Under the pieces are notes generated by a model that did no database searches, was not told the DNA's origin, and was given only the letters and a program-made list of their open reading frames with translations. Position numbers and translations under genes: made by a program. Shown here piece after piece: positions 314-17,184 of a stretch of DNA of 39,865 nt. How positions within the stretch are numbered: position 1 is the first letter of the stretch; each line of letters opens with the position of its first letter. The stretch comes from an uncultured Ruminococcus sp. GTDB lineage: Bacteria; Bacillota; Clostridia; Oscillospirales; Acutalibacteraceae. The stretch covers positions 1-39,865 of the forward strand of contig CACYPH010000016.1 of NCBI GenBank assembly GCA_902776185.1. The letters are read 5' to 3'.

Positions 314-377
314 CAGTTAGGAGTTAGGAATTAGGAGTTAGGAGTTAGGAGCTTTGGGCGGGACACCCGCACCCGAT
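314..377. repeat. Heptamer repeat element 1 (carB-pyrK gap)
   Basis: Five tandem heptamers (AGTTAGG, one of them AATTAGG) occupy 315-349. A GC-rich core with the hairpin GCGGG-ACA-CCCGC follows, ending in CACCCGAT at 377. The same core is seen at 19871-19892 and, in altered form, at 6853-6877. No inverted right arm is visible; pyrK starts 6 bases downstream. This is one of seven related elements in the window. Confidence 0.8.
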
Positions 378-383
378 CGAAAT

Positions 384-1118
384 ATGAAGGATACTGTATT
401 TAAGATTATTGAGAACAACAGAATAGCGAAGAATGTATATCGGATGTGTCTTGAGGGTGATGTTTCCGCCATCAGGAATCCCGGGGAATTCATCAACATC
501 CGGCTCGAGGGATTCTACCTGCGCCGCCCGATCTCCGTTTATGATGTGAGCGATACGACGGTTACGATCATTTACAAGGTCGTCGGCAAGGGCACAGAGG
601 CGATGAGCCGCATGACGGTCGGCGAAGAATTGCAGATCCTGACGGGACTGGGCAACGGCTACGACCTGAGCCTGTCGGGCGATAAGCCGCTTTTGATCGG
701 CGGCGGCGTCGGCGTTCCTCCGATGTATCTGCTCGCAAAACGTCTGCTCGCACAGGGCAAGGTTGTCCGGGTGATCCTCGGCTTCAATACCGAGGACGAG
801 GTTTTCGGCGAGGAGGAATTCAAGGCGATCGGATGCAGCGTAACCGTGACGACCGTCGACGGCTCGCGCGGGGTGAAAGGCTTTGTCACCGACGCGCTGC
901 CCGAAAACTACACCTACTTCTATACCTGCGGACCTGAGCCGATGCTCAAGGCGGTCTACAACGCGACCGATACCTCGGGTCAGTTCAGCTTTGAGGAGCG
1001 AATGGGATGCGGCTTCGGCGCCTGCATGGGCTGCAGCTGCAAGACGATCACCGGCTACAAGCGGATCTGCAAGGACGGTCCGGTGCTGAAAAAGGAGGAG
1101 ATCTTATGGGAGAAATGA
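384..1118 (+). CDS. pyrK: Dihydroorotate dehydrogenase electron transfer subunit
   Basis: Codes for 244 residues. PyrK carries FAD and a [2Fe-2S] cluster and passes electrons from the class 1B dihydroorotate dehydrogenase PyrD to NAD+. The N-terminal FAD-binding barrel shows the LRRPISVYDV motif, the middle shows the nucleotide-binding GGGVGVPPMYLLAKRL, and the C-terminal cluster ligands appear as C209-x4-C214-x2-C217-x11-C229. The ATG at 384 is chosen because homologous sequence begins there. A TTG at 354 would translate the upstream repeat element (GGTPAPDRN) and is rejected. No good ribosome binding site precedes 384. The end overlaps pyrD by 13 bases, which suits translational coupling of two subunits of one enzyme. 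Confidence 0.95.
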   Translation: MKDTVFKIIENNRIAKNVYRMCLEGDVSAIRNPGEFINIRLEGFYLRRPISVYDVSDTTVTIIYKVVGKGTEAMSRMTVGEELQILTGLGNGYDLSLSGDKPLLIGGGVGVPPMYLLAKRLLAQGKVVRVILGFNTEDEVFGEEEFKAIGCSVTVTTVDGSRGVKGFVTDALPENYTYFYTCGPEPMLKAVYNATDTSGQFSFEERMGCGFGACMGCSCKTITGYKRICKDGPVLKKEEILWEK

Positions 1119-2023
1119 AAGTCAATCTCTGCGGGATCACCCTTGATAACCCCGTGATCCCCGCCTCCGGCACGTTCGGCTACGGCTACGAATTCGCCGA
1201 GCTGTACGATATCAACATTCTCGGCACGTTTTCCTTTAAAGGGACGACAAAGGATGCACGCTTCGGCAATCCTACCCCGCGCATCGCGGAATGCACGGCT
1301 GGTATGATCAACGCCGTCGGACTGCAGAATCCCGGCGTCGACAAGGTTATCGGCGAGGAATTGCCTAAATTGAAGAAATGCTTTCACAAGCCTGTGATGG
1401 CAAATGTCAGCGGCTTTGCCGTCGAGGATTACGCCTACACCTGTGGAAAGCTCGATAAAGAAGAACAGGTCGGGTGGCTGGAGGTCAACGTCAGCTGTCC
1501 GAATGTTCACGGCGGCGGAATGAGCTTCGGAACGAATCCCGACGCCGCCGCAGAGGTCACAAGGGCGGTCAAGGCGGTGACGACAAAACCGGTCATCGTC
1601 AAATTAAGCCCGAACGTTACGGATATCGTCAGCATCGCGAAAGCCTGTGAGGACGCGGGCGCGGACGGCATCAGCCTGATCAACACGATGCTGGGGATGC
1701 GGATCGAGCTGAAAACCCGCAAGCCGATCATTGCGAACACGATGGGCGGATTCTCCGGACCGGCGATCTTCCCGGTCGCGCTGAGGATGGTCTATCAGGT
1801 GGCGCACGCGGTGAAGATCCCCGTTGTCGGGATGGGCGGCGTGAGTACCGCTGAGGACGTGATCGAAATGATGCTCGCCGGCGCAACGGCTGTTGAGGTC
1901 GGCGCGGCGAATCTCGTGAATCCGTACGCGAGCAAGGAGATCGTCGAAAATCTGCCGGCGGTCATGGAACAATACGGAATCAAGAATTTGAGCGAAATTA
2001 TCGGAGGGGTGAAGAATGGGTAA
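1106..2023 (+). CDS. pyrD: Dihydroorotate dehydrogenase, class 1B catalytic subunit
   Basis: Codes for 305 residues, the usual length for class 1B. It oxidises dihydroorotate to orotate using FMN in a TIM barrel. The active-site motif [11 protein letters not shown] places the catalytic cysteine at residue 131, as expected for class 1 enzymes; class 2 has serine. The FMN-binding segments GMGGV and [13 protein letters not shown] are present near the C-terminus. The start at 1106 has an AAAGGAGGAG site eight bases upstream and lies inside the end of pyrK. An upstream in-frame ATG at 1007 would add 33 residues that are out-of-frame pyrK sequence. The adjoining pyrK makes the NAD+-linked heterotetramer the natural prediction. 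Confidence 0.96.
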
Positions 2024-2723
2024 GGATGTTATCGTAGCCTGCGATTTTTCGAGCGCAGCGGCTACCTTTGAATTCCTCGACAAGTTCAAGAACGAGGACA
2101 GAAAACCGTTTGTCAAGATCGGCATGGAGCTTTACTATGCCGAGGGACCGTCGATCGTGCGGGAAATCAAGAACAGAGGGCATCAGATCTTTCTGGATCT
2201 GAAGCTGCACGATATCCCGAATACCGTCAAAAAGGCGATGGCTGTCCTGTCGAACCTCGATGTGGACATCACCAATCTGCACGCGGGCGGCACCAAGGCG
2301 ATGATGAAAGCAGCTTTGGAGGGCCTGACCAGAGCTGACGGCACGCGTCCCCTGCTGATCGCGGTGACGCAGCTGACGTCGACCGATCAACAGGCGATGG
2401 AAAACGATCTGCTGATCAAAGAACCGATCGACGAGGTCGTGATGCACTACGCAAAATGCGCTGAGGAAAGCGGGCTGGACGGCGTCGTCTGCTCGCCGCT
2501 GGAAGCCGGCAAGGTGCATGATACCTGCGGCAAGGACTTTTTGACGATCACGCCCGGCGTTCGCTTTGCGGACGGCGAGGTCGGCGATCAAAAGCGCGTG
2601 ATGACCCCCGCCGCGGCAAAGGAGATCGGCTCGGACTACATCGTCGTCGGACGCCCGATCACCCAGGCGGACGATCCGGTCGCGGCTTACAGAAGATGCG
2701 TTGCTGAGTTTGTAGATTAAGGA
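2016..2723 (+). CDS. pyrF: Orotidine 5'-phosphate decarboxylase
   Basis: A protein of about 234 residues catalysing the last step to UMP, decarboxylation of OMP. The signature [11 protein letters not shown] lies at residues 61-71, giving the catalytic Asp61-Lys63-Asp66 set of this cofactor-free TIM-barrel enzyme. The phosphate-binding [15 protein letters not shown] motif is near the C-terminus. The start codon overlaps the pyrD stop (ATGGGTAA), and GGAGGGG lies just upstream, so the start is well supported. Length and motif spacing fit the short bacterial form (B. subtilis type). pyrE follows after a short gap. Confidence 0.96.
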
Positions 2724-2732
2724 GAGAAAAAT

Positions 2733-3377
2733 ATGGATCTGAATGTGAAAATCGCGAAGGATTTATTGAAGATAAAGGCGGTGTTTTTCCGCCCCGAAGA
2801 GCCCTTTACATGGGCGAGCGGGATCAAAAGTCCCGTTTACTGCGACAACCGTCTGACGCTCAGCGACCCTGAGGTGCGCATGGACGTCGAGAGCGGTCTC
2901 GCAGAATTGATCAAGGAAAACTATCCCGAGGTCGAGGTGCTGATGGGTACCTCCACCGCCGGTATCGCCCACGCGGCGATCACCGCTCACCTGATGGGTC
3001 TGCCAATGGGCTATGTCCGCTCCGGTCACAAGGATCACGGCAGACAGAACCAGATCGAGGGCAGACTTGAAAAGGGTCAGAAGGTCGTCGTGGTCGAGGA
3101 TCTGATCTCGACCGGCGGCTCGGTACTCGAGGTCGTCGACGTCCTCAGAGAAGCGGGCGCAGAGGTGCTGGGCATCGTGTCGATCTTCACCTACGGAATG
3201 CAGAAGGGTCTCGATCGACTTGCTGCTGCGGATGTGAAGAATATCAGCCTGACGAACTTTGACGTCATCGCCGAGGTCGCCGCCGAGGACGGCTATATCA
3301 AGAAAGAGGATGTAGAGCGGCTCATTCAGTTCCGCAACAATCCCTCTGACGAAAGCTGGATCGGAGGCAAGGCATGA
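2733..3377 (+). CDS. pyrE: Orotate phosphoribosyltransferase
   Basis: Codes for 214 residues. It joins orotate to PRPP to give OMP, the substrate of PyrF encoded just upstream. The PRPP-binding motif [13 protein letters not shown] is at residues 118-130. The flexible catalytic loop, [17 protein letters not shown], is at about 94-110 with Lys100 and His102. GGAGAGAAAAAT precedes the ATG. The stop overlaps the start of pyrB (ATGA), so the two are probably translationally coupled. Confidence 0.96.
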
Positions 3378-4297
3378 GATCGGTCATCGACGTACTCGAC
3401 CTGAGTACAACGGAGCTCGATGAGCTGATCGGCGTTGCGAACGATATCATCGATCACCCCGAAAACTATCGGGAAGTTTGTAAATATAAGAAGCTCGCGA
3501 CGCTGTTCTTTGAGCCGTCCACCAGAACGAGGATGAGCTTTGAGGCGGCGATGTACGAGCTGGGCGGACAGGTCATCTCGATGAGCTCGGCGGGCGCATC
3601 GTCCGCGGCTAAGGGCGAATCGGTCGCCGATACCGCCAAGACGGTCTCGTGCTATGCGGACATCATTGCGATGCGACACCCGAAAGAGGGCGCGGCTTTA
3701 GTTGCAGCCCGTGCGGCAAAGATCCCGGTCATCAACGCGGGCGACGGCGGTCACTGTCACCCGACCCAGACGCTGGCGGATCTTTTGACCATCTATCGTG
3801 AGAAAGGAAGTTTCAGCAACCTGACCATCGGTCTCTGCGGCGACTTAAAATTCGGCAGGACCGTGCATTCGCTGATCAACGCGATGTCGCGGTACGATAA
3901 TAACAAATTTGTACTTATTTCTCCTGAGGAATTAAAAGTTCCGAGCTACGTCAAGCGCGACGTGCTCAAAGCGAAGCGCATCCCCTATATCCAGACGACC
4001 GATCTGCTCGGCGCGATGCCCGATCTCGATATCCTCTATATGACGCGCGTGCAGAGGGAGCGGTTCTTTAACGAAGAGGATTACCTGCGGCTCAAGGACA
4101 GCTACATCCTCACCCCCGAAAAGCTGAAAAACGCGAAATCGGATCTGAGCATCATGCATCCGCTGCCGAGAGTCAACGAGATCTCTGTCGCGATCGACGA
4201 CGATCCGAGGGCGTGCTATTTCAAGCAGGTCTTAAACGGTAAATATATGCGCATGGCGCTGATCTTGAAGCTGTTGAAGGAGGCGGACAGACTGTGA
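3374..4297 (+). CDS. pyrB: Aspartate carbamoyltransferase catalytic subunit
   Basis: Codes for 307 residues, typical of ATCase catalytic chains. It condenses carbamoyl phosphate with aspartate, the committed step of pyrimidine synthesis. The carbamoyl-phosphate motif [12 protein letters not shown] has STRTR at residues 49-53. HPTQ at 129-132 and HPLPR at 262-266 are the other phosphate- and substrate-binding motifs. The gene overlaps pyrE at its start by four bases and pyrI at its end by four. The presence of pyrI means the holoenzyme is probably the regulated catalytic/regulatory complex known from E. coli, rather than the free trimer of B. subtilis. Confidence 0.97.
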
Positions 4298-4719
4298 ATA
4301 TCGATTCCATCCAGAACGGCATCGTGATCGACCATATCACCGCCGGCAAGGGCATGAAGCTCTATGAGCTGTTGAACCTTGACGAGCTGGACTGCTCGGT
4401 CGCGATCATCAAGAACGTCACCAGTAAGAAGATGGGGAAGAAGGATATCATCAAGGTGGACGCCGATATCCCGGTGAACATCGACGTCATCGGCTATATC
4501 GACCCCGGCGCGACCGTCAACATCATCAAAAACGGTATCCGCGCCGAGAAGATGAATATCCAGATGCCCGCGATACTGACGAACGTCATCAAATGCAAAA
4601 ATCCCCGTTGTATCACGACGACGGAACAGGAGCTCGACCATGTGTTCAAGCTCGCCGATAAAGAGAACAAGGTGTACCGCTGTGTATACTGTGAAACTAA
4701 GGAAGAGAGGGTTATATAA
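4294..4719 (+). CDS. pyrI: Aspartate carbamoyltransferase regulatory subunit
   Basis: Codes for 141 residues starting at GTG 4294, which overlaps the pyrB stop; AAGGAGG lies nine bases upstream. PyrI binds nucleotide effectors in its N-terminal domain and holds the catalytic chains through a C-terminal zinc domain. The four zinc cysteines are visible as C101-x4-C106 and C130-x2-C133. Expected behaviour by family is feedback control by CTP/UTP and ATP; this is known for the E. coli protein and inferred here. The stop codon is followed immediately by the guaB ATG. Confidence 0.95.
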
Positions 4720-6225
4720 ATGGCAACCTTTATTAATGAACCTGCCCATACTTTTAACGAATATCTGCTGATCCCGGGATACTCCTCGAGCGAGTGTATC
4801 CCCGCGAATGTGACGCTGAAAACACCCCTTGTCAAGTACAAAAAGGGCGAAGATCCGGCGATCACCATGAATATCCCGCTGGTGTCTGCAATCATGCAGG
4901 CGGTGTCCGGCGACAAGCTGGCAGTCGCACTGGCGACACAGGGCGGCGTGAGCTTCATCTACGGCTCACAGAGCGTTGAGGACGAGGCGGCGATGGTAAA
5001 GCGTGCCAAGAGCTATAAGGCGGGCTTTGTCAAGAGCGACAGCAATATCCGTCCCGATGCAACTCTGGCAGACGTCATGGAGATTACCGCACGTACCGGC
5101 CACTCGACCTTAGCGGTCACCGAGGACGGCTCGTCCGAGGGCAAGCTGCTGGGCGTTGTCACCAGCCGTGACTATCGTATCAGCCGTATGGACAGAAGCG
5201 AAAAGGTCGAGACCTTTATGACGCCCTTTGAAAAGCTGATCTACGCTTACGAGGGGATCACCCTCAGTGAAGCGAACGATATCATCTGGGACCACAAGCT
5301 CAATTCCCTGCCGATCATCACCAAGGACGGCAAGTTCTGCTACTTTGTATTCCGCAAGGACTACGAAGCGCATAAGGCGAATCCGAACGAGCTGCTCGAC
5401 GCACACAAGAGATATGTTGTCGGCGCAGGTATCAACACCCGCGACTATGCCGAGCGTGTGCCCGCGCTGATCGAGGCGGGAGCGGATGTGCTGTGCATCG
5501 ACTCATCCGAGGGCTTCTCCGAGTGGCAGAAGCTGACCATCGACTGGATCCGCGAGCATTACGGCGACAGCGTCAAGGTCGGCGCGGGCAACGTCGTCGA
5601 CGCAGAGGGCTTCCGATTCCTCGCCGAGAGCGGCGCTGACTTTATCAAGGTCGGTATCGGCGGCGGTTCGATCTGCATCACCCGCGAGACCAAGGGTATC
5701 GGACGCGGTCAGGCGACTGCGCTGATCGAGGTCTGTGCGGAGAGAGATAAGTATTTTGAGGAAACAGGCGTATATATCCCCGTCTGCTCCGACGGCGGCA
5801 TCGTTTACGACCACCATATCACGCTCGCGCTGGCGATGGGCGCAGACTTCATCATGCTGGGCAGATACTTCGCCCGCTTCGATGAAAGCCCGTCCAACAA
5901 GGTTTCGATCAACGGTACTTACTATAAGGAGTACTGGGGCGAGGGCTCACAGAGAGCGCGCAACTGGCAGCGCTATGACCTCGGCGGCGATAAGAAGCTG
6001 AGCTTTGAAGAGGGCGTTGATTCACTCGTACCGTATGCGGGTCCGTTGAAGGACAACGTTGCGCTGTCGCTGTCAAAGGTCAAGTCGACCATGTGCAACT
6101 GCGGCGCGCTGACCATCCGTGAATTACAGCAGAAGGCGAAGCTGACGCTGGTATCCGCGACCTCGATCGTAGAGGGCGGCGCACACGACGTTATCCAGAA
6201 GGATAAAAGCTCGGCGATGAAGTGA
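4720..6225 (+). CDS. guaB: Inosine-5'-monophosphate dehydrogenase (T. foetus-type)
   Basis: Codes for 501 residues. It oxidises IMP to XMP with NAD+, the first step towards GMP. The barrel is interrupted by a CBS-domain pair (about residues 105-220). The active-site loop reads [17 protein letters not shown] with catalytic Cys319, in place of the common bacterial GPGSICTTR. The flap carries Arg418-Tyr419 in NWQRYDLGG. From memory, these positions and most of the surrounding sequence match the Tritrichomonas foetus enzyme, so this belongs to that clade. It starts directly after the pyrI stop with GGAAGAGAGG upstream, so it appears to be the last gene of the pyrimidine operon. A heptamer repeat element follows the stop. 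Confidence 0.94.
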
Positions 6226-6294
6226 GATTAGTCGGTAGTTGGTAGTCGTTAGTGAGTGTAGTGCCTGCGGCGCTATCGGGTGACCAGCGGTCAC
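6226..6294. repeat. Heptamer repeat element 2 (guaB-purE gap)
   Basis: Four heptamers (TTAGTCG, GTAGTTG, GTAGTCG, TTAGTGA) fill 6228-6255. The core TAGTGCCTGCGGCGCTATC follows, then the hairpin GTGACC-AGC-GGTCAC at 6280-6294. The first two heptamers and the TAGTGCCTGCGGCGC core recur after the cyclase gene at 35901-35953. No inverted right arm is visible. The remaining bases up to 6336 hold the purE ribosome binding site (TTGGAGGAAAC). Confidence 0.75.
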
Positions 6295-6336
6295 GAGGGA
6301 GGAGCAAGCTTCTCCGCTACAGATTTGGAGGAAACA

Positions 6337-6825
6337 ATGAAAAAAATAGCGATCATTATGGGGTCGGACAGCGATCTGCCGATCGCCAAAAAGGCGGCAG
6401 ATATGCTGAAGACCCTTGATATTCCGTTCGAAGCGCACGTTTACTCGGCGCACAGAACACCGTTCGAAGCGCGGGACTTTGCGCTGAATGCGCGCGGGCG
6501 CGGCTTCGGCGCGATCATCGCCTTTGCCGGCATGGCGGCGCATCTGGCAGGCGCTCTGGCGGCGAACACCACGATCCCGGTCATCGGCGTACCGTGTAAG
6601 GGCGGCGCTCAGGACGGCATGGACGCACTGCTCGCGACCGTGCAGATGCCGACGGGCATCCCGGTGGCAACGGTTGCTCTGAACGGCGGCGCAAATGCGG
6701 CGCTGCTCGCGGCGCAGATCATCGCCGTTGAAGATAAGGCGCTTGCCGAGAAGCTCGACAATAAGCGCAAGTCCGACGCCGCGGCGGTATTGGAGAAAGA
6801 TAAAGGGATTATGGAAAGGCTGTAA
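6337..6825 (+). CDS. purE: 5-(carboxyamino)imidazole ribonucleotide mutase
   Basis: Codes for 162 residues, the usual size for class I PurE. The enzyme moves the carboxylate of N5-CAIR to C4 of the imidazole ring to give CAIR. The N-terminal GSDSDLP motif and YSAHRTP carry the substrate-binding and catalytic histidine regions. AGMAAHLAG and [24 protein letters not shown] resemble class I enzymes more than the class II AIR carboxylases. The start is set by GGAGG seven bases upstream; the longer frame from 6280 would translate the repeat region. purK, the usual partner making N5-CAIR, is not in the window, so the class I assignment is by sequence only. Confidence 0.92.
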
Positions 6826-6940: not shown

Positions 6941-6958
6941 AATGGAGGTATATGAACT

Positions 6959-8383
6959 ATGGGAGGTTTTTTCGGGATAGCATCGCATGAGGACTGCATG
7001 ATGGATGTATTCTTCGGCGTTGACTATCATTCACACCTCGGTACACGCCGCGGAGGTATGGCGGCGTATGACAAAGAAATCGGACTGCAGCGCAAGATCC
7101 ATAACATTGAGAATGCGCCGTTCCGTACCAAATTTGAGCGTATTTTTGATGAGATGAGCGGTACGTCTGTCATCGGCGTGATCTCTGACAGCGATCCCCA
7201 GCCGATGCTGATCCGCTCGCATCTCGGTACCTATGCGATCTGCAACGTCGGTATCATCAACAACGCCGACGAGCTGATCGAAACATATTTTCAGTCTTCC
7301 GGCGGTCACTTTGACGCGATGACCGGCGGCAGGATCAATTCCACCGAGCTGCTCGCGGCGCTGATCGACCAGAAGGGCGATTTTGTCGAGGGCATCAAGT
7401 TCGCGCAGGACGTCATCGACGGCACTGCCTCGGTGCTGATCTTAAAGGACGACGGTTCGATCGTCGCCGCCCGCGACAAGGTCGGCAGACTGCCGGTCGT
7501 CATCGGTAAGGGCGAGAGCGGCTTTGCCGTATCGTTCGAGAATTTTGCGTATCAGAAGCTCGGTTATGAGGACTACAAGGAATTAGGGCCCGGCGAGATC
7601 GTCGAGCTGACGCCCGACGGCTGTACCACCATGCGCGAGCCGCTGAAGAAAAAGCGGATCTGCTCCTTCCTTTGGAGCTACTACGGCTATCCGACCTCTA
7701 CCTATGAGGGCGTGAATGTTGAGGCGATGCGCTATATCAACGGACGCATCATGGCGGATAACGATAAGGAGAATCTCGGCGACCTCGATATCGACTATGT
7801 CGGCGGTGTGCCGGATTCGGGTACGCCCCATGCAATCGGTTATGCGAACCAGAGCCATAAGCCCTTTGCGCGCGCATTTATCAAATATACGCCGACCTGG
7901 TCGCGCTCGTTCATGCCCGCGCGTCAGACCGACCGCAACAAGATCGCGAAGATGAAGCAGATCCCGGTTTACGATCTGATCAAGGACAAGAATCTGCTGT
8001 TCGTGGACGACAGCATCGTCCGCGGCACACAGCTCAGAGAAACCGTCGAGTTCCTCTATGAGAACGGTGCAAAGAGCGTGCATATGCGCTCTGCCTGCCC
8101 GCCGATCATGTTCGGCTGTAAGTTCCTCAACTTCTCGCGCTCGACCTCCGATATGGAGCTGATCGCGCGCAGGGTCATCATGGAGCTCGAGGGCGAAGAG
8201 GGCTTTAATCATATCAAAGAATATTCCGACGGCTCGACCGAGCGCGGCAAGAACCTGAGAAAGACCATCTGCGAAAAGCTGAAATTCGCTTCATTGGATT
8301 TCCAGTCGCTCGACGGCATCATCGAGGCGATCGGCATGGATAAAAACGACCTTTGTACCTATTGCTGGGACGGAGAGGAATAA
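6959..8383 (+). CDS. purF: Amidophosphoribosyltransferase (PurF) lacking the glutaminase site
   Basis: Codes for 474 residues. PurF makes phosphoribosylamine from PRPP, the committed step of purine synthesis. The PRPP motif LLFVDDSIVRGTQ (346-358) is intact, and cysteines matching the [4Fe-4S] ligands of the B. subtilis enzyme are visible at C235, C387, C466 and C469. The N-terminal Ntn glutaminase domain is present by length but its active site is gone: the protein starts MGGFFG where active enzymes have a nucleophile cysteine (CGxxG), the GHVRYAT motif is GVISDSDPQP, the oxyanion HNG is NVG, and SSDTE is INSTE. I infer use of free ammonia or of another glutaminase. GGAGG lies 10 bases upstream. 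An overlapping ATG at 6952 opens only 12 codons. Confidence 0.88.
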   Translation: MGGFFGIASHEDCMMDVFFGVDYHSHLGTRRGGMAAYDKEIGLQRKIHNIENAPFRTKFERIFDEMSGTSVIGVISDSDPQPMLIRSHLGTYAICNVGIINNADELIETYFQSSGGHFDAMTGGRINSTELLAALIDQKGDFVEGIKFAQDVIDGTASVLILKDDGSIVAARDKVGRLPVVIGKGESGFAVSFENFAYQKLGYEDYKELGPGEIVELTPDGCTTMREPLKKKRICSFLWSYYGYPTSTYEGVNVEAMRYINGRIMADNDKENLGDLDIDYVGGVPDSGTPHAIGYANQSHKPFARAFIKYTPTWSRSFMPARQTDRNKIAKMKQIPVYDLIKDKNLLFVDDSIVRGTQLRETVEFLYENGAKSVHMRSACPPIMFGCKFLNFSRSTSDMELIARRVIMELEGEEGFNHIKEYSDGSTERGKNLRKTICEKLKFASLDFQSLDGIIEAIGMDKNDLCTYCWDGEE

Positions 8384-8512
8384 CGCTTGCGTTTTTTCTC
8401 CGCCTATTGAAAAGCCTTTGCTTTTCTGGGCGTCATCAACGGCGGGTCAATCGTTACTCAGCACGACTATTTCATATGAATGCTCTTTGAAATGAGCAGA
8501 AAGGCAGATAAT
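8384..8512. other. purF-purM spacer with two small hairpins
   Basis: This 129-base spacer breaks the otherwise tight gene packing. AACG-CTTG-CGTT at 8382-8393 is followed by more T residues and could act as a weak terminator. GAAAAGC-CTTT-GCTTTTC at 8409-8426 is a clean 7-bp stem. No heptamer repeat and no clear promoter is seen. The purM binding site is a weak AGAAAGG. Confidence 0.45.
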
Positions 8513-9556
8513 ATGATACAGAATTCTAAATCGGACGCTTACGCCGCGGCGGGCGTGGATATCACCGCCGGCTACAAGGCGGTCGAGCTGATGAAACAGC
8601 ACGTGGCACGTACTGCGACAAAGGGCGTATGCTCGGACGTCGGCGGCTTCGGCGGACTGTTTGAGCTGGACCTCGAGGGGATCTCCAAGCCTGTGCTGGT
8701 CAGCGGTACCGACGGCGTCGGTACAAAGCTGAAGCTGGCGTTTCTCATGGACAAACACGATACCGTAGGCATCGACTGTGTCGCGATGTGCGTGAACGAC
8801 ATCGTCTGCGTCGGTGCAAAGCCGCTGGTATTCCTCGACTACATCGCCTGCGGCAAGAATGTTCCCGAACGGATCGCGGATATCGTCAAAGGCGTTGCAG
8901 AGGGCTGTGTGCAGGCAGGCGCCGCATTGATCGGCGGCGAGACCGCCGAGATGCCCGGCTTCTATCCCGCGGATGAATACGACCTCGCGGGCTACAGCAC
9001 CGGCGTGGTCGACAAGGCGAAGATCATCGACAATACCAAGATGGCTGAGGGCGACGTTGTGATCGCCCTGCCCTCGAGCGGCGTTCACTCCAACGGCTTC
9101 TCGCTGGTCAGAAAGGTGTTCGACGTTGAGAACGCCGATATCAAAGAGCCGATCGAGGCTTTGGGCGGCAAGTCGGTCGGCGAGACCCTGCTCACTCCGA
9201 CAAAGATCTATGTCAAGCCGGTACTCGCGCTTTTGGAAGAAGTCACCGTCAAGGGCATCTCGCATATCACCGGCGGCGGCTTTTATGAGAATATCCCGCG
9301 CTCGATTCCGGATGGACTGTGTGCGAAGATCAAAAAGGACGACGTTCGCGTCTTGCCGATCTTCAAACTCATTCAGGAGAAGGGCGGCATCAGCGAGCAT
9401 GATATGTTCAACACCTTCAACATGGGCGTCGGCATGAGCATCGTTGTTCCCGCAGATCAGGCAGAGAAAGCGCTCACGATCCTTAAGGAAAACGGCGAGG
9501 ATGCTTATGTCATCGGCGAGATCGTCGCGGCAGAGGAGAAAATTCAGTTATGCTAA
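8513..9556 (+). CDS. purM: Phosphoribosylformylglycinamidine cyclo-ligase
   Basis: Codes for 347 residues, the family length. PurM closes the imidazole ring: FGAM plus ATP gives AIR. The N-terminal [18 protein letters not shown] and the nucleotide-binding [11 protein letters not shown] (residues 141-151) are characteristic, as is [15 protein letters not shown]. The ATG at 8513 is preferred because the sequence before it ([11 protein letters not shown] from 8480) is not part of the family and AGAAAGG lies at a suitable distance. The end overlaps purN by seven bases (ATGCTAA). Confidence 0.95.
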
Positions 9557-10170
9557 AGGAAAAAGCGCGCATCGCGGTGCTGGTCTCCGGCGGCGGTACG
9601 AATCTGCAGGCGATACTGGACGCACAGCAAAGCGGCGTCATCCACAGCGGCGAGGTCGTCTTGGTCATCTCCAACAACAAGGACGCTTACGCACTGACCC
9701 GTGCGGCAAAAGCCGGTATCAAAGGATTATATATTTCTAAAAAAGAATTAAAATCTCAAGCGGCATTTGAGGCCGCCGTGGTGAACGCGATGGAGGAATA
9801 CGAGATCGATCTGATCGTTCTTGCGGGCTTTATGTCGATCTTGTCCGAGGGGTTCACCTCAAAGTATCCAAAGCGCATCATCAATGTGCATCCCGCGCTG
9901 ATCCCGTCTTTCTGCGGCAAGGGCTATTATGGTCTGAAAGTGCATGAGGCGGCGCTCGAAAAGGGCGTGAAGGTGACCGGTGCGACGGTTCATTTCGTCA
10001 ACGAGATCCCCGACGGGGGAGAGATCATCGCCCAAAAAGCGGTGGAGGTCATGGACGGCGACACGCCCGAAGTGCTCCAGCGCAGGGTGATGGAGCAGGC
10101 GGAATGGATCATTCTTCCTCAATCTGTTGAAAAGGTTTCAGCAGAGTTAGGAGTTAGGAGTCAGGAGTGA
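9550..10170 (+). CDS. purN: Phosphoribosylglycinamide formyltransferase
   Basis: Codes for 206 residues. It transfers the formyl group of 10-formyl-tetrahydrofolate to GAR. The [10 protein letters not shown] loop (13-22) binds the phosphate; the catalytic set appears as Asn112-x-His114 in [10 protein letters not shown] and Asp155 in EIPDGGEII. The start overlaps the purM stop. The last eight residues (ELGVRSQE) and the stop are written by heptamer repeat element 4, so the native C-terminus has been replaced or extended. Because it lies past the catalytic core, function is probably kept. Confidence 0.94.
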
Positions 10171-10197: not shown

Positions 10198-10251
10198 GTG
10201 TCTTATCTCAATGAATCGCGATTATATCATTGTAAATAAAGGGGAATGTAT

Positions 10252-10971
10252 ATGAACATCTACAAAATCAACGACATCGCCGAGCTGATCGAGGGCAATT
10301 CCTACGTCGGCAGAGGCATCGTCATCGGCAAGACTGCCGACGGCACAAAGGCGGCGACCGCGTACTTTATCATGGGCAGAAGCGCGAACAGCCGCAATCG
10401 CATCTTCACCGAGCGCGACGGCGCGGTCTACACCGAGCCTTTTGACGCTTCCAAGGTCGAGGATCCGAGCCTGATCATCTACGCGGCGATCCGCGAGTAT
10501 GAGAACAACCTGATCGTGACCAACGGCGATCAGACCGACACCATCTATGACGGCATGGAAAGCGGTATCGGCTTCCACAAGGCTCTCGCGACCCGCGAGT
10601 TCGAGCCTGACGCGCCGAACCTCACGCCCCGCATCAGCGGTATGCTGACCTTTGACGAGGGCGACTTCACCTACAGCATGAGCATCTTAAAATCCATCGA
10701 CGCAGAGGGCTCTGCTTGTGCACGCTACGGCTTTGACTATCCGTCAAAGGCGGGGCTGGGTCACTTTATCCACACCTACGTTTGCGACGGCAATCCGATC
10801 CCGACCTTCCAGGGCGAGCCGGAGAGAGTTTCGATCGACAACGATATCGACGCTTTCACCGACAAGCTGTGGAACGCGCTGGATGCAGATAACAAGATCT
10901 CGCTGTATGTCCGCTATATTGACCTCAAAACCGGCGAGGTCGAGAATCGCTTGATCAATAAGAATCAATAA
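10252..10971 (+). CDS. purO: IMP cyclohydrolase, PurO-type
   Basis: Codes for 239 residues. It resembles the archaeal-type IMP cyclohydrolase family (PurO), which closes FAICAR to IMP and is unrelated to the MGS-like cyclohydrolase domain of bacterial PurH. Family-like features are the N-terminal YVGRGIVIGKTADGTKAATAY and MGRSANSRNRIF, and the internal ITNGDQTD-type segment (VTNGDQTDTIYDGM). Context is strong: the next gene is an AICAR transformylase with no cyclohydrolase domain. The ATG at 10252 is preferred over 10246 because AAAGGGG is then about seven bases away. The family call is from motif memory plus context. Confidence 0.85.
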   Translation: MNIYKINDIAELIEGNSYVGRGIVIGKTADGTKAATAYFIMGRSANSRNRIFTERDGAVYTEPFDASKVEDPSLIIYAAIREYENNLIVTNGDQTDTIYDGMESGIGFHKALATREFEPDAPNLTPRISGMLTFDEGDFTYSMSILKSIDAEGSACARYGFDYPSKAGLGHFIHTYVCDGNPIPTFQGEPERVSIDNDIDAFTDKLWNALDADNKISLYVRYIDLKTGEVENRLINKNQ

Positions 10972-10989
10972 GATAAGGGGAATATCATC

Positions 10990-12174
10990 ATGAAAGAATT
11001 TGAACTGAAATACGGTTGTAATCCGAACCAGAAACCCGCGAAGATCTTTATGCACGACGGCTCCGATCTGCCCATCCAGATCCTCTGCGGCAGACCCGGC
11101 TACATCAACTTCCTCGACGCATTCAACTCATGGCAGCTCGTCAAGGAACTCAAAGAGGCGCTCGGCTTACCGGCGGTGACCTCGTTCAAACACGTCAGCC
11201 CCACCTCGGCGGCGGTCGGCATCCCGCTTTCCGACAAGCTCAAGAAAGCCTGCTTTGTCGACGATATCGAGGGTCTCGACGACAGCCCGCTTGCGTGCGC
11301 TTATGCGCGTGCCCGCGGCACTGACAGAATGTGCTCGTTCGGCGACTGGGTCGCCCTGTCCGACGTCTGTGACGTTACCACCGCGAAGATGATCCAGCGC
11401 GAAGTTTCCGACGGCATCATCGCGCCGGGTTATGAGCCCGAAGCGCTGGAGATCCTGAAAAGTAAGCGCAAGGGCAACTATAACATCGTACAGATCGACC
11501 CTGATTATGTTCCCGATCCCGTGGAGCACAAGCAGGTCTACGGCATCACCTTTGAGCAGGGCCGCAATAACTTTGAGATCAACCGTGAGCTGCTGAGCAA
11601 CCTTGTGACCAAGAACAAGGAGCTGCCCGACAGCGCGGCGCGCGATCTGATCGTTGCGCTGATCACCCTGAAATATACCCAGTCCAACTCCGTTTGCTAT
11701 GCCGTTGACGGTCAGGCGATCGGCGTCGGCGCGGGTCAGCAGAGCCGTATCCACTGCACTCGTCTTGCGGGTACTAAGGCGGATACATGGTTCCTCAGAC
11801 AGGCGGACAAGGTACTGAACCTGCCGTTCCGTGACGATATCCGCCGTCCCGACCGCGACAATGTCATCGACGGCTACATCAACCAGAACGAAGAGGACGT
11901 GACCGCTGACGGCGTATGGCAGCGATACTTTACCGAGCAGCCCGCTCCGTTCACCGCAGAGGAACAGCGCGCTTATCTCGACACCTGTGAGAACGTCGCC
12001 CTCGGTTCAGACGCGTTCTTCCCGTTCTTCGACAACATCGAGCGCGCCTACAGAAGTGGCGTCAAATATATCGCCGAGCCCGGCGGTTCGATCCGCGACG
12101 ATCTGGTCATCGAGTGCGCCGACAAGCACGACATGGTCATGGCGTTCACCGGCATGAGATTGTTCCATCATTAA
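10990..12174 (+). CDS. purH: AICAR formyltransferase, stand-alone (PurH transformylase domain only)
   Basis: Codes for 394 residues. It formylates AICAR to FAICAR using 10-formyl-tetrahydrofolate. The sequence is the transformylase domain of PurH: LKYGCNPNQKPAKI at the start, the catalytic Lys-His pair in TSFKHVSPTSAAVG, NSVCYAVDGQAIGVGAGQQSR, and SDAFFPFFDNIERA near the end. The usual N-terminal MGS-like cyclohydrolase domain (about 200 residues) is absent, and this is not a truncation because the gene has its own AAGGGG site and start. The PurO-type gene upstream should take the FAICAR to IMP. Confidence 0.93.
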   Translation: MKEFELKYGCNPNQKPAKIFMHDGSDLPIQILCGRPGYINFLDAFNSWQLVKELKEALGLPAVTSFKHVSPTSAAVGIPLSDKLKKACFVDDIEGLDDSPLACAYARARGTDRMCSFGDWVALSDVCDVTTAKMIQREVSDGIIAPGYEPEALEILKSKRKGNYNIVQIDPDYVPDPVEHKQVYGITFEQGRNNFEINRELLSNLVTKNKELPDSAARDLIVALITLKYTQSNSVCYAVDGQAIGVGAGQQSRIHCTRLAGTKADTWFLRQADKVLNLPFRDDIRRPDRDNVIDGYINQNEEDVTADGVWQRYFTEQPAPFTAEEQRAYLDTCENVALGSDAFFPFFDNIERAYRSGVKYIAEPGGSIRDDLVIECADKHDMVMAFTGMRLFHH

Positions 12175-12235: not shown

Positions 12236-13498
12236 ATGGTTGTAATGGTTATTGGCGGCGGCGGACGCGAGCACGCCATCATTAAGAAGTTAAAAGAGAA
12301 TCAGGATATCGAGAAGATCTACGCCCTGCCCGGCAACGGAGGGATCGCCGCCGATGCCGAATGTGTGGCGGTCGGCGCGACGGATCTCGACGGCATCGTG
12401 AAATTTGCGGTCGACAATGCGATCGACTATGCGGTGGTCGCACCCGACGATCCGCTGGTCATGGGATGCGTCGACAGGCTCGAGGAAAAGGGGATCCCCT
12501 GCTTCGGTCCGCGCGCGAATGCCGCGATCATCGAGGGCAGCAAGGTCTTTTCAAAGAACCTGATGAAAAAATACGGCATCCCGACTGCGGCTTACGAGGT
12601 GTTTGACGACGCTGAGAAAGCGCTCGCGTACCTCGATACTGCGCCGATCCCGACCGTCATCAAGGCGGACGGTCTGGCGCTGGGCAAGGGCGTCATCATC
12701 GCCGACACCCGCGAGAAAGCGAAGGCGGCGGTCATCTCGATCATGCAGGACAAGCAGTTCGGCAAGAGCGGCGATCAGATCGTCATCGAGGAATTCCTCG
12801 AGGGTCCCGAGGTATCGGTGCTGAGCTTTACCGACGGCGAGGTCGTCGTGCCGATGATCTCTTCGATGGATCATAAGCGTGCGGGCGACGGCGATACCGG
12901 ACTGAATACCGGCGGCATGGGTACGGTCGCGCCGAATCCCTACTACACCGCGGCGGTCGCCGAGGAATGCATGAACAATATTTTCCTGCCGACCATCAAG
13001 GCGATGAAAGCGGAGGGCAGACCGTTCAAGGGTTGTCTGTACTTCGGTCTGATGATCACCAAAGACGGCGTGAAGGTTATCGAATATAACTGCCGCTTCG
13101 GCGATCCGGAGACACAGGTCGTCCTGCCGCTGTTGAAATCCGATCTGTTCACGATCATGCGCGCGGTCACTGACGGCAGGCTCAGCGAAACGCCGGTTGA
13201 ATTCGAGGATAAAAACGCCGCGTGCGTCATCATGGCGAGCGAGGGCTATCCCGTAAAATATGAGAAGGGCTACGAGATCACCATTCCCGCCGAAATCAGC
13301 GACAAGGTCTTTGTCGCGGGCGCGGCTCTCAAGGACGGCAAGCTGGTCACTTCCGGCGGCAGAGTGCTGGGCGTGACGGCGATCGCGGACAGTCTGAAAG
13401 ATGCGATCGATGCGTCCTATGAGATGGTGAACGAGATTCATTTTGACAACGCCTACTGGCGTCATGATATCGGAAAAAGAGCGATGGAGGCTGAGTAA
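12236..13498 (+). CDS. purD: Phosphoribosylamine-glycine ligase
   Basis: Codes for 420 residues, typical of GAR synthetase. It joins phosphoribosylamine, the PurF product, to glycine with ATP. The N-terminal GGGGREHA motif is at residues 7-14. The ATP-grasp core includes SKVFSKNLMKKYGIPTAAYEV, PTVIKADGLALGKGV, and NTGGMGTVAPNPYYT; the metal-binding YNCRFGDPETQ is clear. TAGGAGATCA precedes the ATG. The stop overlaps the purL start as TAATG. Confidence 0.96.
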   Translation: MVVMVIGGGGREHAIIKKLKENQDIEKIYALPGNGGIAADAECVAVGATDLDGIVKFAVDNAIDYAVVAPDDPLVMGCVDRLEEKGIPCFGPRANAAIIEGSKVFSKNLMKKYGIPTAAYEVFDDAEKALAYLDTAPIPTVIKADGLALGKGVIIADTREKAKAAVISIMQDKQFGKSGDQIVIEEFLEGPEVSVLSFTDGEVVVPMISSMDHKRAGDGDTGLNTGGMGTVAPNPYYTAAVAEECMNNIFLPTIKAMKAEGRPFKGCLYFGLMITKDGVKVIEYNCRFGDPETQVVLPLLKSDLFTIMRAVTDGRLSETPVEFEDKNAACVIMASEGYPVKYEKGYEITIPAEISDKVFVAGAALKDGKLVTSGGRVLGVTAIADSLKDAIDASYEMVNEIHFDNAYWRHDIGKRAMEAE

Positions 13499-16400
13499 TG
13501 GTATACAGGATTTTTGTGGAAAAGCGCGAGGGCTTACAGAATGAGGCAAAGGCGCTGCTTTCCGATATCAACAATCTGCTGTCGATCACATCCTTGAAGG
13601 ATGTGCGCATTTTCAACCGCTATGATGCGGAGAATATCGACAAAGAACTCTTTGATTACGCAGTCGGCGCGGTGTTCAGCGAACCGCAATTAGACATCGC
13701 ATCGACAGAGATCGATACAGGGGACGCGCGCGTCTTTGCGGTGGAATATCTGCCCGGTCAGTTTGACCAGCGTGCGGATTCCGCGGCACAGTGTATCCAG
13801 ATCATCTCTCAGGGCGAGCGCCCGACCGTGCGTTCGGCAAAGGTTTACGCCCTGTACGGCGACCTTTCCGACAGTGAGATCGAAGAGATCAAGAAATATG
13901 TCATCAACCCGGTCGAGGCGCGCGAGGCTTCACTTGAGCTGCCCGCGACGCTCAAGACCGATTATGAGATTCCCACGACCGTTCGCACCCTCGACGGCTT
14001 TAACGAGCTGGACGAAAACGGGCTGAAAGCCTTTGTGGACGAGATGGGACTGGCGATGGACTTGGACGATATCAAGTTCTGTCAGAAATATTTTATCAGC
14101 GAGCATCGTGACCCGACCATCACCGAGATCCGCATGATCGACACCTACTGGTCGGATCACTGTCGTCACACGACATTCCTGACGATCATTGACAATGCAA
14201 AGTTTGAGGATGAACTGCTCCAGAAAGCGTATGACGAATATATCGCCGTTCGCGAAGAGCTTGGTCGGACAAAACCGATCTGCCTGATGGATCTCGCAAC
14301 GGTCGCGGTGAAATATCTGCGCACACACGGCAAGCTCGACAAGCTCGACGAGAGCGAGGAGATCAACGCCTGCACCGTGAAGATGGACGTCGATGTTGAC
14401 GGCGTGACTGAACCGTGGCTGCTGCTGTTTAAAAATGAGACCCATAACCATCCGACGGAGATCGAGCCGTTCGGCGGCGCGGCGACCTGCATCGGCGGCG
14501 CGATCCGCGATCCGCTGTCGGGACGCTCGTATGTTTACGGTGCGATGCGCGTGACCGGTGCGGCTGATCCGACCGTCCCTGTCAGTGAGACCATCGAGGG
14601 CAAGCTCCCCCAGCGCAAGATCGTCACCACCGCCGCGGCGGGCTACAGCTCCTACGGCAACCAGATCGGTCTGGCGACGGGCATCGTCGATGAGATCTAT
14701 CATCCCGGCTATGCCGCAAAGCGCATGGAGATCGGCGCGGTCATCGCCGCTGCTCCCGCGGAGAATGTACGCCGCGAAGTTCCCGCTCCCGGAGATGTGG
14801 TCATCCTCTTGGGCGGTGCGACGGGTCGCGACGGTATCGGCGGCGCGACGGGTTCGTCCAAGGCGCACAACGCGCACTCGGTCGAGACCTGCGGCGCAGA
14901 GGTGCAGAAGGGTAACGCGCCCGAGGAACGCAAGCTGCAGAGATTATTCCGCAGAAAAGACGCTTGTCAGATGATCAAGCGCTGTAACGACTTCGGCGCG
15001 GGCGGCGTATCGGTCGCGATCGGCGAGCTGGCGGACGGTCTGGATATTGATCTGAATGCAGTTCCCAAGAAATACGAGGGTCTGGACGGCACAGAGCTCG
15101 CAATCTCCGAATCGCAGGAGCGCATGGCGGTCGTCGTTGAGCCCGAGAATGTTGACGCGTTCCTTGCACTCGCAAAAGAGGAGAACCTCAACGCCTGTGC
15201 GGTCGCGGTCGTGAAGGCTGATCCCAGACTGACCATGACATGGAACGGTGCAAAGATCGTGGATATCAGCCGCGAGTTCCTCAATACCAACGGTGCGGAA
15301 AAGCATATCGACATCACTCCCGCCGCTCCCGAAAATTATGAAAAAACGGTCGAAGGCGGTTTTGCCGAGAATATGAAGGCGATCGCGTCCGACCTGAATA
15401 TCTGCTCGAAGCGCGGATTGTCAGAGCGTTTTGACTCCACCATCGGCGCGGGTACGGTGCTGATGCCGTTCGGCGGCAAGAATCAGCTCACCCCGATCCA
15501 GGCGATGGTGCAGAAGGTAAGTGTCGAGAAGAAGCACACCGACACCGTGTCGCTGATGGCATGGGGCTACAATCCGCTGATCGCGGAGAAAAGCCCGTAT
15601 CACGGTGCCTATCTGGCGGTCATCGAATCTGTCAGCAAGCTGATCGCATCGGGCGCATCCTTCGAGGATGTTTACCTGACGTTCCAGGAGTATTTCGAGA
15701 AGCCCGGTTCGGACGGCAAGCGCTGGGGCAAGCCTCTGGCGGCATTACTCGGCGCGTTCAAGGCGCAGATGAACCTCGGCATCGGCTCGATCGGCGGAAA
15801 GGACAGCATGAGCGGCAGCTTTGAGAAGCTCGACGTTCCGCCGACATTGGTGTCCTTTGCGGTCACCACCGACAAGGTGCAGAACGTGATCTCGCCCGAA
15901 TTCAAGGCGGCGGGTCACAAGGTCGTGATGCTCGCGCCCGATTATGACGGCGACAAGCTTCCCGATACGCAGTCGCTCTTAAACATATATAATAAGGTGA
16001 CAGCATTGATGCGCGAGGGCAAGGTTTACGCCGCATATACGCCGACCATCGGCGGTATTGCCGAGGCGATCATGAAGATGGCGTTCGGCAACGGCTTTGG
16101 ATTTGCTTTCGACGATATTGCGCTCGATGCGCTGTTCGGCTACAACTACGGCGCATTTCTCCTCGAGACAGCTGCAGAGATCGACGGTGCGGTAGTTATC
16201 GGCACAGTGACCGACGACGGTGCATTTACCTACGGCGGCGAGAGGGTTGCAGTCAGCGAGATCCTCGGCGAGTATGAGGACAAGCTCGAGGGCGTTTATG
16301 CCTGCAACATTCCCGATACGCATGCTCCTGTCGAGAATTTCAATTACAGCGCAACATCTTATCCGTCACCCGCTATCAAAGCGGCGCGACCCAAGGTGCT

Positions 16401-17184
16401 GATTCCTGCGTTCCCGGGTACGAACTGCGAGTATGATTCTGCGAAGGCGGTCGCCGATGCAGGCGCACAGCCCGAGATCATCGTCATCAACAATCTGAGC
16501 GCAAGCGGCATTCAGCAGAGCGTCGAACAGTTTGCACGCGAGCTGAAAACCGCCCAGATGGTGTTCATCCCCGGCGGCTTCTCCGGCGGCGATGAGCCTG
16601 ACGGTTCGGGCAAATTCATCACCGCCTTCTTCCGCAACGCCGCGATCAAAGAGGGCGTCGCTGATCTGCTCGACAATCGCGACGGTCTGATGTGCGGTAT
16701 CTGCAACGGCTTCCAGGCGCTGATCAAACTGGGTCTGGTGCCCTACGGCAAGATCATCGATACCGATGAGAACTGCCCGACCCTGACCTACAATACGATC
16801 GCGCGTCACCAGAGCCGCATCGTCCGCACACGCATCGCCAGTAACAAGAGCCCGTGGCTGAGCCTGACCAATGTCGGCGACGTCTACAGCGTGCCGATCT
16901 CCCACGGCGAAGGACGATTCTTCGCTTCTGAGGAACTGATCCGGGAATTAGCCGCGCGCGGCCAGATCGCGACGCAGTACGTCGATCTCGACGGCAACGC
17001 GACAACCGACGTCCATTTCAACCCGAACAACTCCTGCTATGCGATCGAGGGCATCACCTCGCCCGACGGCAGAGTTTTCGGCAAGATGGGACACTCTGAG
17101 CGTGTCGGCGCTGGGCTGTACAAGAATGTGCCGGGCAATTACGACATCCGGATGTTCGAGGCGGCAGTCAAGTACTTTCAATAA
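13498..17184 (+). CDS. purL: Phosphoribosylformylglycinamidine synthase with fused glutaminase
   Basis: Codes for 1228 residues, a single-chain FGAM synthase. It turns FGAR, ATP and glutamine into FGAM. Order: PurS-like N-terminal part (about 1-150), linker, two PurM-like synthase halves (IDTYWSDHCRHTTF near 215, NETHNHPTEIEPFGGAAT near 313, GIGGATGSSKAHN near 448), and a class I glutaminase from about residue 965. The glutaminase triad is intact: Cys1069 in GICNGFQ, His1199 and Glu1201 in GHSERVG. This length resembles the form found in Clostridia, streptococci and Bacteroides rather than the split PurS/PurQ/PurL of Bacillus. It is the last gene of the purine operon. Confidence 0.96.
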   Translation: MVYRIFVEKREGLQNEAKALLSDINNLLSITSLKDVRIFNRYDAENIDKELFDYAVGAVFSEPQLDIASTEIDTGDARVFAVEYLPGQFDQRADSAAQCIQIISQGERPTVRSAKVYALYGDLSDSEIEEIKKYVINPVEAREASLELPATLKTDYEIPTTVRTLDGFNELDENGLKAFVDEMGLAMDLDDIKFCQKYFISEHRDPTITEIRMIDTYWSDHCRHTTFLTIIDNAKFEDELLQKAYDEYIAVREELGRTKPICLMDLATVAVKYLRTHGKLDKLDESEEINACTVKMDVDVDGVTEPWLLLFKNETHNHPTEIEPFGGAATCIGGAIRDPLSGRSYVYGAMRVTGAADPTVPVSETIEGKLPQRKIVTTAAAGYSSYGNQIGLATGIVDEIYHPGYAAKRMEIGAVIAAAPAENVRREVPAPGDVVILLGGATGRDGIGGATGSSKAHNAHSVETCGAEVQKGNAPEERKLQRLFRRKDACQMIKRCNDFGAGGVSVAIGELADGLDIDLNAVPKKYEGLDGTELAISESQERMAVVVEPENVDAFLALAKEENLNACAVAVVKADPRLTMTWNGAKIVDISREFLNTNGAEKHIDITPAAPENYEKTVEGGFAENMKAIASDLNICSKRGLSERFDSTIGAGTVLMPFGGKNQLTPIQAMVQKVSVEKKHTDTVSLMAWGYNPLIAEKSPYHGAYLAVIESVSKLIASGASFEDVYLTFQEYFEKPGSDGKRWGKPLAALLGAFKAQMNLGIGSIGGKDSMSGSFEKLDVPPTLVSFAVTTDKVQNVISPEFKAAGHKVVMLAPDYDGDKLPDTQSLLNIYNKVTALMREGKVYAAYTPTIGGIAEAIMKMAFGNGFGFAFDDIALDALFGYNYGAFLLETAAEIDGAVVIGTVTDDGAFTYGGERVAVSEILGEYEDKLEGVYACNIPDTHAPVENFNYSATSYPSPAIKAARPKVLIPAFPGTNCEYDSAKAVADAGAQPEIIVINNLSASGIQQSVEQFARELKTAQMVFIPGGFSGGDEPDGSGKFITAFFRNAAIKEGVADLLDNRDGLMCGICNGFQALIKLGLVPYGKIIDTDENCPTLTYNTIARHQSRIVRTRIASNKSPWLSLTNVGDVYSVPISHGEGRFFASEELIRELAARGQIATQYVDLDGNATTDVHFNPNNSCYAIEGITSPDGRVFGKMGHSERVGAGLYKNVPGNYDIRMFEAAVKYFQ

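Follow-up and report, generated by a model that had tools for sequence, protein, structure and literature searches.

Many gut clostridia seem to start purine synthesis with a PurF homologue whose glutaminase domain is dead, and these enzymes may use free ammonia instead of glutamine. We describe this clade from one member, purF0, carried on contig CACYPH010000016.1 (assembly GCA_902776185.1) of an uncultured Ruminococcus sp., of which a stretch of 39,865 nucleotides, the window, was analysed. The phosphoribosyltransferase half of the protein is intact, and its N-terminal half has the fold of an N-terminal nucleophile (Ntn) glutaminase, but all four residues checked there, catalytic or glutamine-site, are lost. 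We consider it probable that PurF0 gave up glutamine hydrolysis and makes 5-phosphoribosylamine (PRA) from phosphoribosyl pyrophosphate (PRPP) and free ammonia. The gene and its parts are as follows.

6944..6955, + strand: GGAGG (6944-6948), resembling a ribosome-binding site, then an in-frame TGA (6953-6955), read from the sequence
6959..8383, + strand: purF0, encoding a PurF homologue of 474 amino acids whose glutaminase domain is dead; ATG start, beginning MGGFFG (open reading frame (ORF) and alignment)
6959..7648, + strand: pseudo-glutaminase domain, residues 1-230, in which Gly2, Ser76, Val97 and Ser128 replace Cys, Arg, Asn and Asp (alignment)
7661..8365, + strand: stretch that holds Cys235, Cys387, Cys466 and Cys469, presumed [4Fe-4S] ligands (alignment)
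7883..7900, + strand: KYTPTW (309-314), clade-wide substitute for the canonical K-N-R-Y-x-G loop before the PRPP site (alignment)
8003..8032, + strand: PRPP-binding loop VDDSIVRGTQ (349-358) (alignment)

The glutaminase site is replaced throughout the clade

Residues were counted in an alignment of 150 distinct dead-type sequences, the window's included, and 68 canonical PurF proteins, canonical gaps being left out. At the column of the nucleophile Cys1 the window has Gly2 and the dead type has Gly in 143 sequences, Ser in 5 and a gap in 2; Cys occurs in none of the 148 dead-type sequences with a residue there and in 65 of 65 canonical ones. The Arg of GHxRY (canonical 67/67) is Ser76 in the window and Ser (143), Asn (6) or a gap (1) across the dead type, all 150 members of which also lack the two residues following this position. 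The Asn of HNG, invariant in the 68 canonical sequences, is Val97 in the window and Val (96), Ile (45), Thr (8) or Leu (1) in the dead type. Finally, the Asp of SDxE (canonical 67/68) is Ser128 in the window, and the five commonest dead-type states in this column, Ser, Ala, Thr, Gln and Pro, which account for 137 of 150 sequences, do not include Asp. A missed start that would add the cysteine was excluded: since an in-frame TGA and a GGAGG lie directly upstream of the ATG, no upstream start can supply an N-terminal Cys, and relatives start alike.

The pseudo-glutaminase domain has new near-invariant motifs, DYHSHLGT and IHNIxNxPFRTKF. Asp22, Tyr23, His24, Ser25, Leu27, Thr29, His48 and Pro54 are each found in at least 93% of dead-type members and in no canonical sequence, as are Phe55, Thr57, Phe59, Ile75, Ser76, Asp77, Arg177 and Phe193. 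Within the clade, the dead half averages 61% pairwise identity and the catalytic half 68% (97 thinned sequences). Six pairs gave ratios of non-synonymous to synonymous substitution rates (dN/dS) of 0.025-0.143 for the dead half, several of these pairs being close to saturation at synonymous sites. A quick tree built from 76 thinned sequences places a long branch with 100% support between 55 dead-type and 21 canonical ones, and the dead or canonical state changes once, against 18.4 times in shuffles; the canonical rows derive partly from viral contigs, and the tree came with a warning that a single long canonical branch (L187) meets the dead clade. The clade-wide replacement, the new motifs and the low dN/dS therefore indicate that the domain is not decaying.

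In the catalytic half, DDSIVRGT (D350-T357) is identical in 150/150 sequences at every position but 353 (Ile 148, Val 2). Cys235 and Cys387 are kept in all 150, and Cys466 and Cys469 in 148 each (gap in 2); all four align with cysteines of canonical PurF, the iron-sulphur cluster itself being presumed. Within KYTPTW, K309, T311, P312 and W314 are present in 150/150, T313 in 148/150, and Y310 is invariant among 19 sequences. The window protein has the two-domain PurF fold in its predicted structure, and it scores 158.6 bits with the PurF model TIGR01134, below the cut-off of 350. The sequence-only reading had proposed that the nucleophile cysteine is glycine (MGGFFG), that the Arg, Asn and Asp positions are altered, that the PRPP loop and the four cysteines are conserved, and that none of this reflects decay; the reading frame, the alignment and the dN/dS values bear it out on each point.

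The dead type is often the only PurF and accompanies the purine pathway

A genome-collection search with clade-typical peptides returned at least 596 stretches encoding a relative, the best 80 of which served as 80 related loci; many record titles among these best 80 are of rumen and colon samples. purM is present in 76 of the 80 loci and purE in 72. Among 296 other genomes of the window's order, each at least 95% complete, 62 carry the dead type only, 108 both types, 109 the canonical type only and 17 neither; a genome counts as carrying both when its best match is at E 1e-150 or lower and one or more others reach 1e-10. The second matches themselves were inspected in a set of 59 genomes only. 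In that set, the window's genome included, 27 carry the dead type, 12 of them alone and 15 with more. When 25 sole carriers were scanned with the canonical family model, none had a PurF above cut-off; 24 of these 25 keep PurL. PurD is found in 60 of the 62 sole carriers versus 4 of the 17 genomes without any PurF (p = 8e-10), and three genomes in which the dead-type gene lies apart have a pur cluster without any other purF. From the sole carriers, the retention of PurD and PurL and the operon data, the simplest reading is therefore that the dead type performs the PurF step. The isolate genome of Criibacterium bergeronii also shows the dead type only (one match at E 1e-10).

In a phylum-wide sample, the dead type occurs in 9 of 159 genomes, including the window's own and one of the same order (G048), and so in 7 of the other 157; this sample counts matches at 1e-150 only, is thus silent on canonical copies, and leaves the kinship of its 130 unmatched genomes unlisted. 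Plasmid records hold relatives in Peptoclostridium acidaminophilum (55%) and in three Bacteroidota (49%). Among 40 loci from viral contigs, one (L163, 47% identity) is a clear dead-type member. A phage or plasmid origin was rejected on these grounds, the three plasmid records inspected (all but H4) being large or carrying housekeeping genes. The suggestion of an unstudied subgroup in gut anaerobes is supported: the matching stretches number at least 596, and searches of an open-access paper library gave no description of a bacterial dead-PurF clade, the sole printed analogue met there being the archaeal PurF′.

In the window, purF0 lies between the following genes.

4720..6225, + strand: inosine monophosphate (IMP) dehydrogenase of PRK07107 type, upstream and read the same way (profile match)
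6280..6825, + strand: purE, 5-(carboxyamino)imidazole ribonucleotide mutase (TIGR01162 over cut-off)
8480..9556, + strand: purM (TIGR00878 over cut-off)
9550..10170, + strand: purN (TIGR00639 over cut-off)
10246..10971, + strand: IMP cyclohydrolase, PurO family (PF07826 213 bits; NF003167 68 bits against a cut-off of 150)
10990..12174, + strand: 5-aminoimidazole-4-carboxamide ribonucleotide (AICAR) formyltransferase, NF005492 type (profile match)
12236..13498, + strand: purD, the enzyme using the PurF product (TIGR00877 over cut-off)
13498..17184, + strand: purL, one-chain formylglycinamidine ribonucleotide synthase type that includes a glutaminase part (TIGR01857 1885 bits)

Calling this a full purine operon, as had been done from the sequence, was slightly too strong: the genes listed from purE to purL are there, but purC and purB were not found among the window ORFs scanned. 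A family with a succinylaminoimidazolecarboxamide ribonucleotide synthetase representative stands upstream of the dead-type gene in 35 of the 80 loci. The two proteins encoded at 10246-12174 stand in for PurH. Directly upstream and in the same direction, 354-6225 holds a pyrimidine cluster (pyrK, pyrD, pyrF, pyrE, pyrB, pyrI) together with the IMP dehydrogenase gene. An RNA scan of the window at gathering scores returned an S10 leader only.

Free ammonia as the candidate nitrogen source

In the mechanism that we propose, the C-terminal phosphoribosyltransferase half would convert PRPP and NH3 into PRA and pyrophosphate, the first committed purine step, and the dead N-terminal half would most likely serve as a structural lid and as an ammonia entry or regulatory surface. 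We infer the catalytic activity, ammonia as donor and this role of the dead domain from the comparisons given here; the earlier proposal of an ammonia-fed or partner-fed enzyme is consistent with the data. Ammonia is plentiful in the rumen and colon, and a glutaminase would therefore be dispensable there. Cys1 mutants of E. coli PurF are reported to retain ammonia activity (PMC3261824), and PRPP amidotransferase is described as able to use ambient ammonia (PMC12017579).

Among the neighbour families that recur in the 80 loci we saw no glutaminase; most of these families were assigned from a single representative or by eye. The leading neighbours are purC, formyltetrahydrofolate synthetase, pyrimidine genes and a formate/nitrite-type transporter. 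The last (PF01226 representative, L055:11054-11674) occurs in 9 of 80 loci, about 2.5 kb past the purF0 start, and is perhaps a formate channel for formyl-folate steps.

In one family (f39) of the same phylum, labelled outside the window's class, carB lies directly upstream of purF0, at a distance of about 30-95 bases, in 5 of 5 loci from four genomes.

L247:5646-10312: carB-purF0 pair
L248:8835-13512: carB-purF0 pair
L252:4963-9886: carB-purF0 pair
L253:5583-10254: carB-purF0 pair
L254:8871-13548: carB-purF0 pair

In all four genomes the only carA lies on a different contig, next to a carB of another kind, and the two kinds of CarB are 46-47% identical. No carA was found beside the paired carB among the adjoining ORFs checked, and a carA-sized ORF after purF0 in L254 proved to be a glycosyltransferase. 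A ZMP/ZTP riboswitch (L253:15232-15314) is found close to a gene resembling AICAR formyltransferase, at a distance of a few kb from the carB-purF0 pair. Free ammonia is favoured because CarB and PurF, two enzymes normally fed by a glutaminase module, here form a tight pair in which both lack that module; CarB is reported to make carbamoyl phosphate from ammonia (PMC6245113). We put forward more tentatively, at somewhat under even chances, the combined proposal that the clade is a dedicated ammonia-fed purine entry enzyme and that, in this family, it forms a two-gene cassette with a CarA-less second CarB, which would start purine and pyrimidine synthesis from free ammonia and by-pass glutamine.

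Evidence against and alternative explanations

Several observations weigh against an ammonia-fed PurF step. A canonical PurF is kept by the 108 genomes with both types. The window's nearest relative, G023 (protein 93% identical, genome 95% complete), has both. A second canonical purF had been named as a finding that would count against the proposal, and none was found in the window's genome, but since that assembly is 86% complete and G023 has both types, the status of sole PurF is insecure for this organism. Among 20 hand-picked loci, 7 dead-type genes lie in a purine operon and 13 outside, the latter including one 6.8 kb from a canonical purF with purC beside it (L215) and one at a contig end (L224). 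In G055 (98% complete; locus L217) the dead type is the only PurF-like gene, and PurD, PurM and PurL were not found. In Bacteroidota and Peptoclostridium, dead-type purF stands directly before pepT, not purine genes. As for the carB pair, its CarB passes the glutamine-hydrolysing large-subunit model (1348.6 bits, cut-off 1027), and the single CarA of the genome could serve both CarB proteins; the pairing was seen in one family only, and three other carriers outside the order (L249-L251) have no carB there. Moreover, E. coli carbamoyl phosphate synthetase is reported to need very high, probably unphysiological, ammonia levels (PMC6245113), so loss of a glutaminase alone does not give a good ammonia enzyme.

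The pepT context spans L204:8001-11904, L205:8001-11783 and L203:12001-14800, with gcvT next in Bacteroidota. No purine-related riboswitch was found directly before orphan copies in the scanned loci (L224 unscanned), nor any conserved neighbour adjoining orphan copies within the window's order.

An unlikely alternative, although the best placed, is that the dead domain is a docking platform for a separate glutaminase, which would supply ammonia to the PRPP site in the way that PurQ serves PurL. Its near-equal conservation with the catalytic half and its own near-invariant motifs are what a binding surface would show, and the window's genome encodes stand-alone class II amidotransferase-like proteins, including a GATase_4 protein and a GltB-like protein of 384 amino acids. 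Against this, the recurring neighbours of the 80 loci offered no glutaminase, and the GATase_4 protein was rejected as a general partner: of 80 genomes only 2 have it, the window's and one with canonical PurF alone, and none of the 39 other sole-type genomes does, the GltB-like protein and the usual glutaminases of other pathways lying outside this survey.

Slightly less probable still is that the clade does not form PRA: it would be a regulator derived from PurF, or would catalyse a different PRPP-dependent reaction. G055, the loci outside purine operons and the pepT neighbour would fit such a role; the conserved PRPP loop, the 62 near-complete genomes with no other PurF and their retention of PurD and PurL speak against it. 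So does a Salmonella study, according to which no PurF-independent route had so far given PRA enough for the purine need (PMC3485032). That PurF0 works only in a mixed tetramer, with canonical PurF supplying the ammonia, is very improbable: both types co-occur in many genomes and stand side by side in 7 of 80 loci, but the sole carriers show no canonical partner. Nothing was found in favour of a decaying gene or sequence error, and this reading can be set aside, as 150 distinct sequences share the state, dN/dS is low and the operon is conserved.

Relation to known systems and significance

Dead glutaminase domains are kept in other enzymes. Mammalian carbamoyl phosphate synthetase I is ammonia-fed and retains a glutaminase domain with a lost Cys, but that domain is a class I glutaminase and the reaction is different; β-lactam synthetase (1jgt) and carbapenam synthetase (1q15) have a dead domain of Ntn-glutaminase fold without the nucleophile, but belong to the AsnB family and transfer no ammonia. 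With canonical PurF (B. subtilis 1ao0/1gph, E. coli 1ecf) PurF0 shares the full-length fold, the PRPP loop, the four presumed iron-sulphur cysteines and the place in a purine operon; it differs in the replaced Cys1, Arg, Asn and Asp, in KYTPTW for K-N-R-Y-x-G, in an identity of only 25-29% and in falling below the TIGR01134 cut-off. Because fold and pathway place are kept and the defining glutaminase features are lacking, we regard PurF0 as a PurF variant and not as a standard PurF. Crenarchaeal PurF′, as described by Brown et al. 2011 (PMC3261824), likewise has no N-terminal cysteine and lies near purine genes, and an ammonia-dependent role was proposed for it; the likeness to PurF0 rests on that description of PurF′. 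According to the same account, PurF′ accompanies canonical PurF in every crenarchaeon studied, whereas PurF0 is alone in 62 of 296 genomes.

The nitrogen for the first committed step of purine synthesis normally comes from glutamine. If widespread gut clostridia do use ammonia instead, glutamine-analogue inhibitors should miss the PurF0 step, their purine synthesis would be coupled to the ammonia of the gut, and the label 'amidophosphoribosyltransferase' in annotations would conceal the change. The question raised by archaeal PurF′ in 2011 thereby becomes testable in cultured bacteria, for example in the Criibacterium bergeronii isolate.
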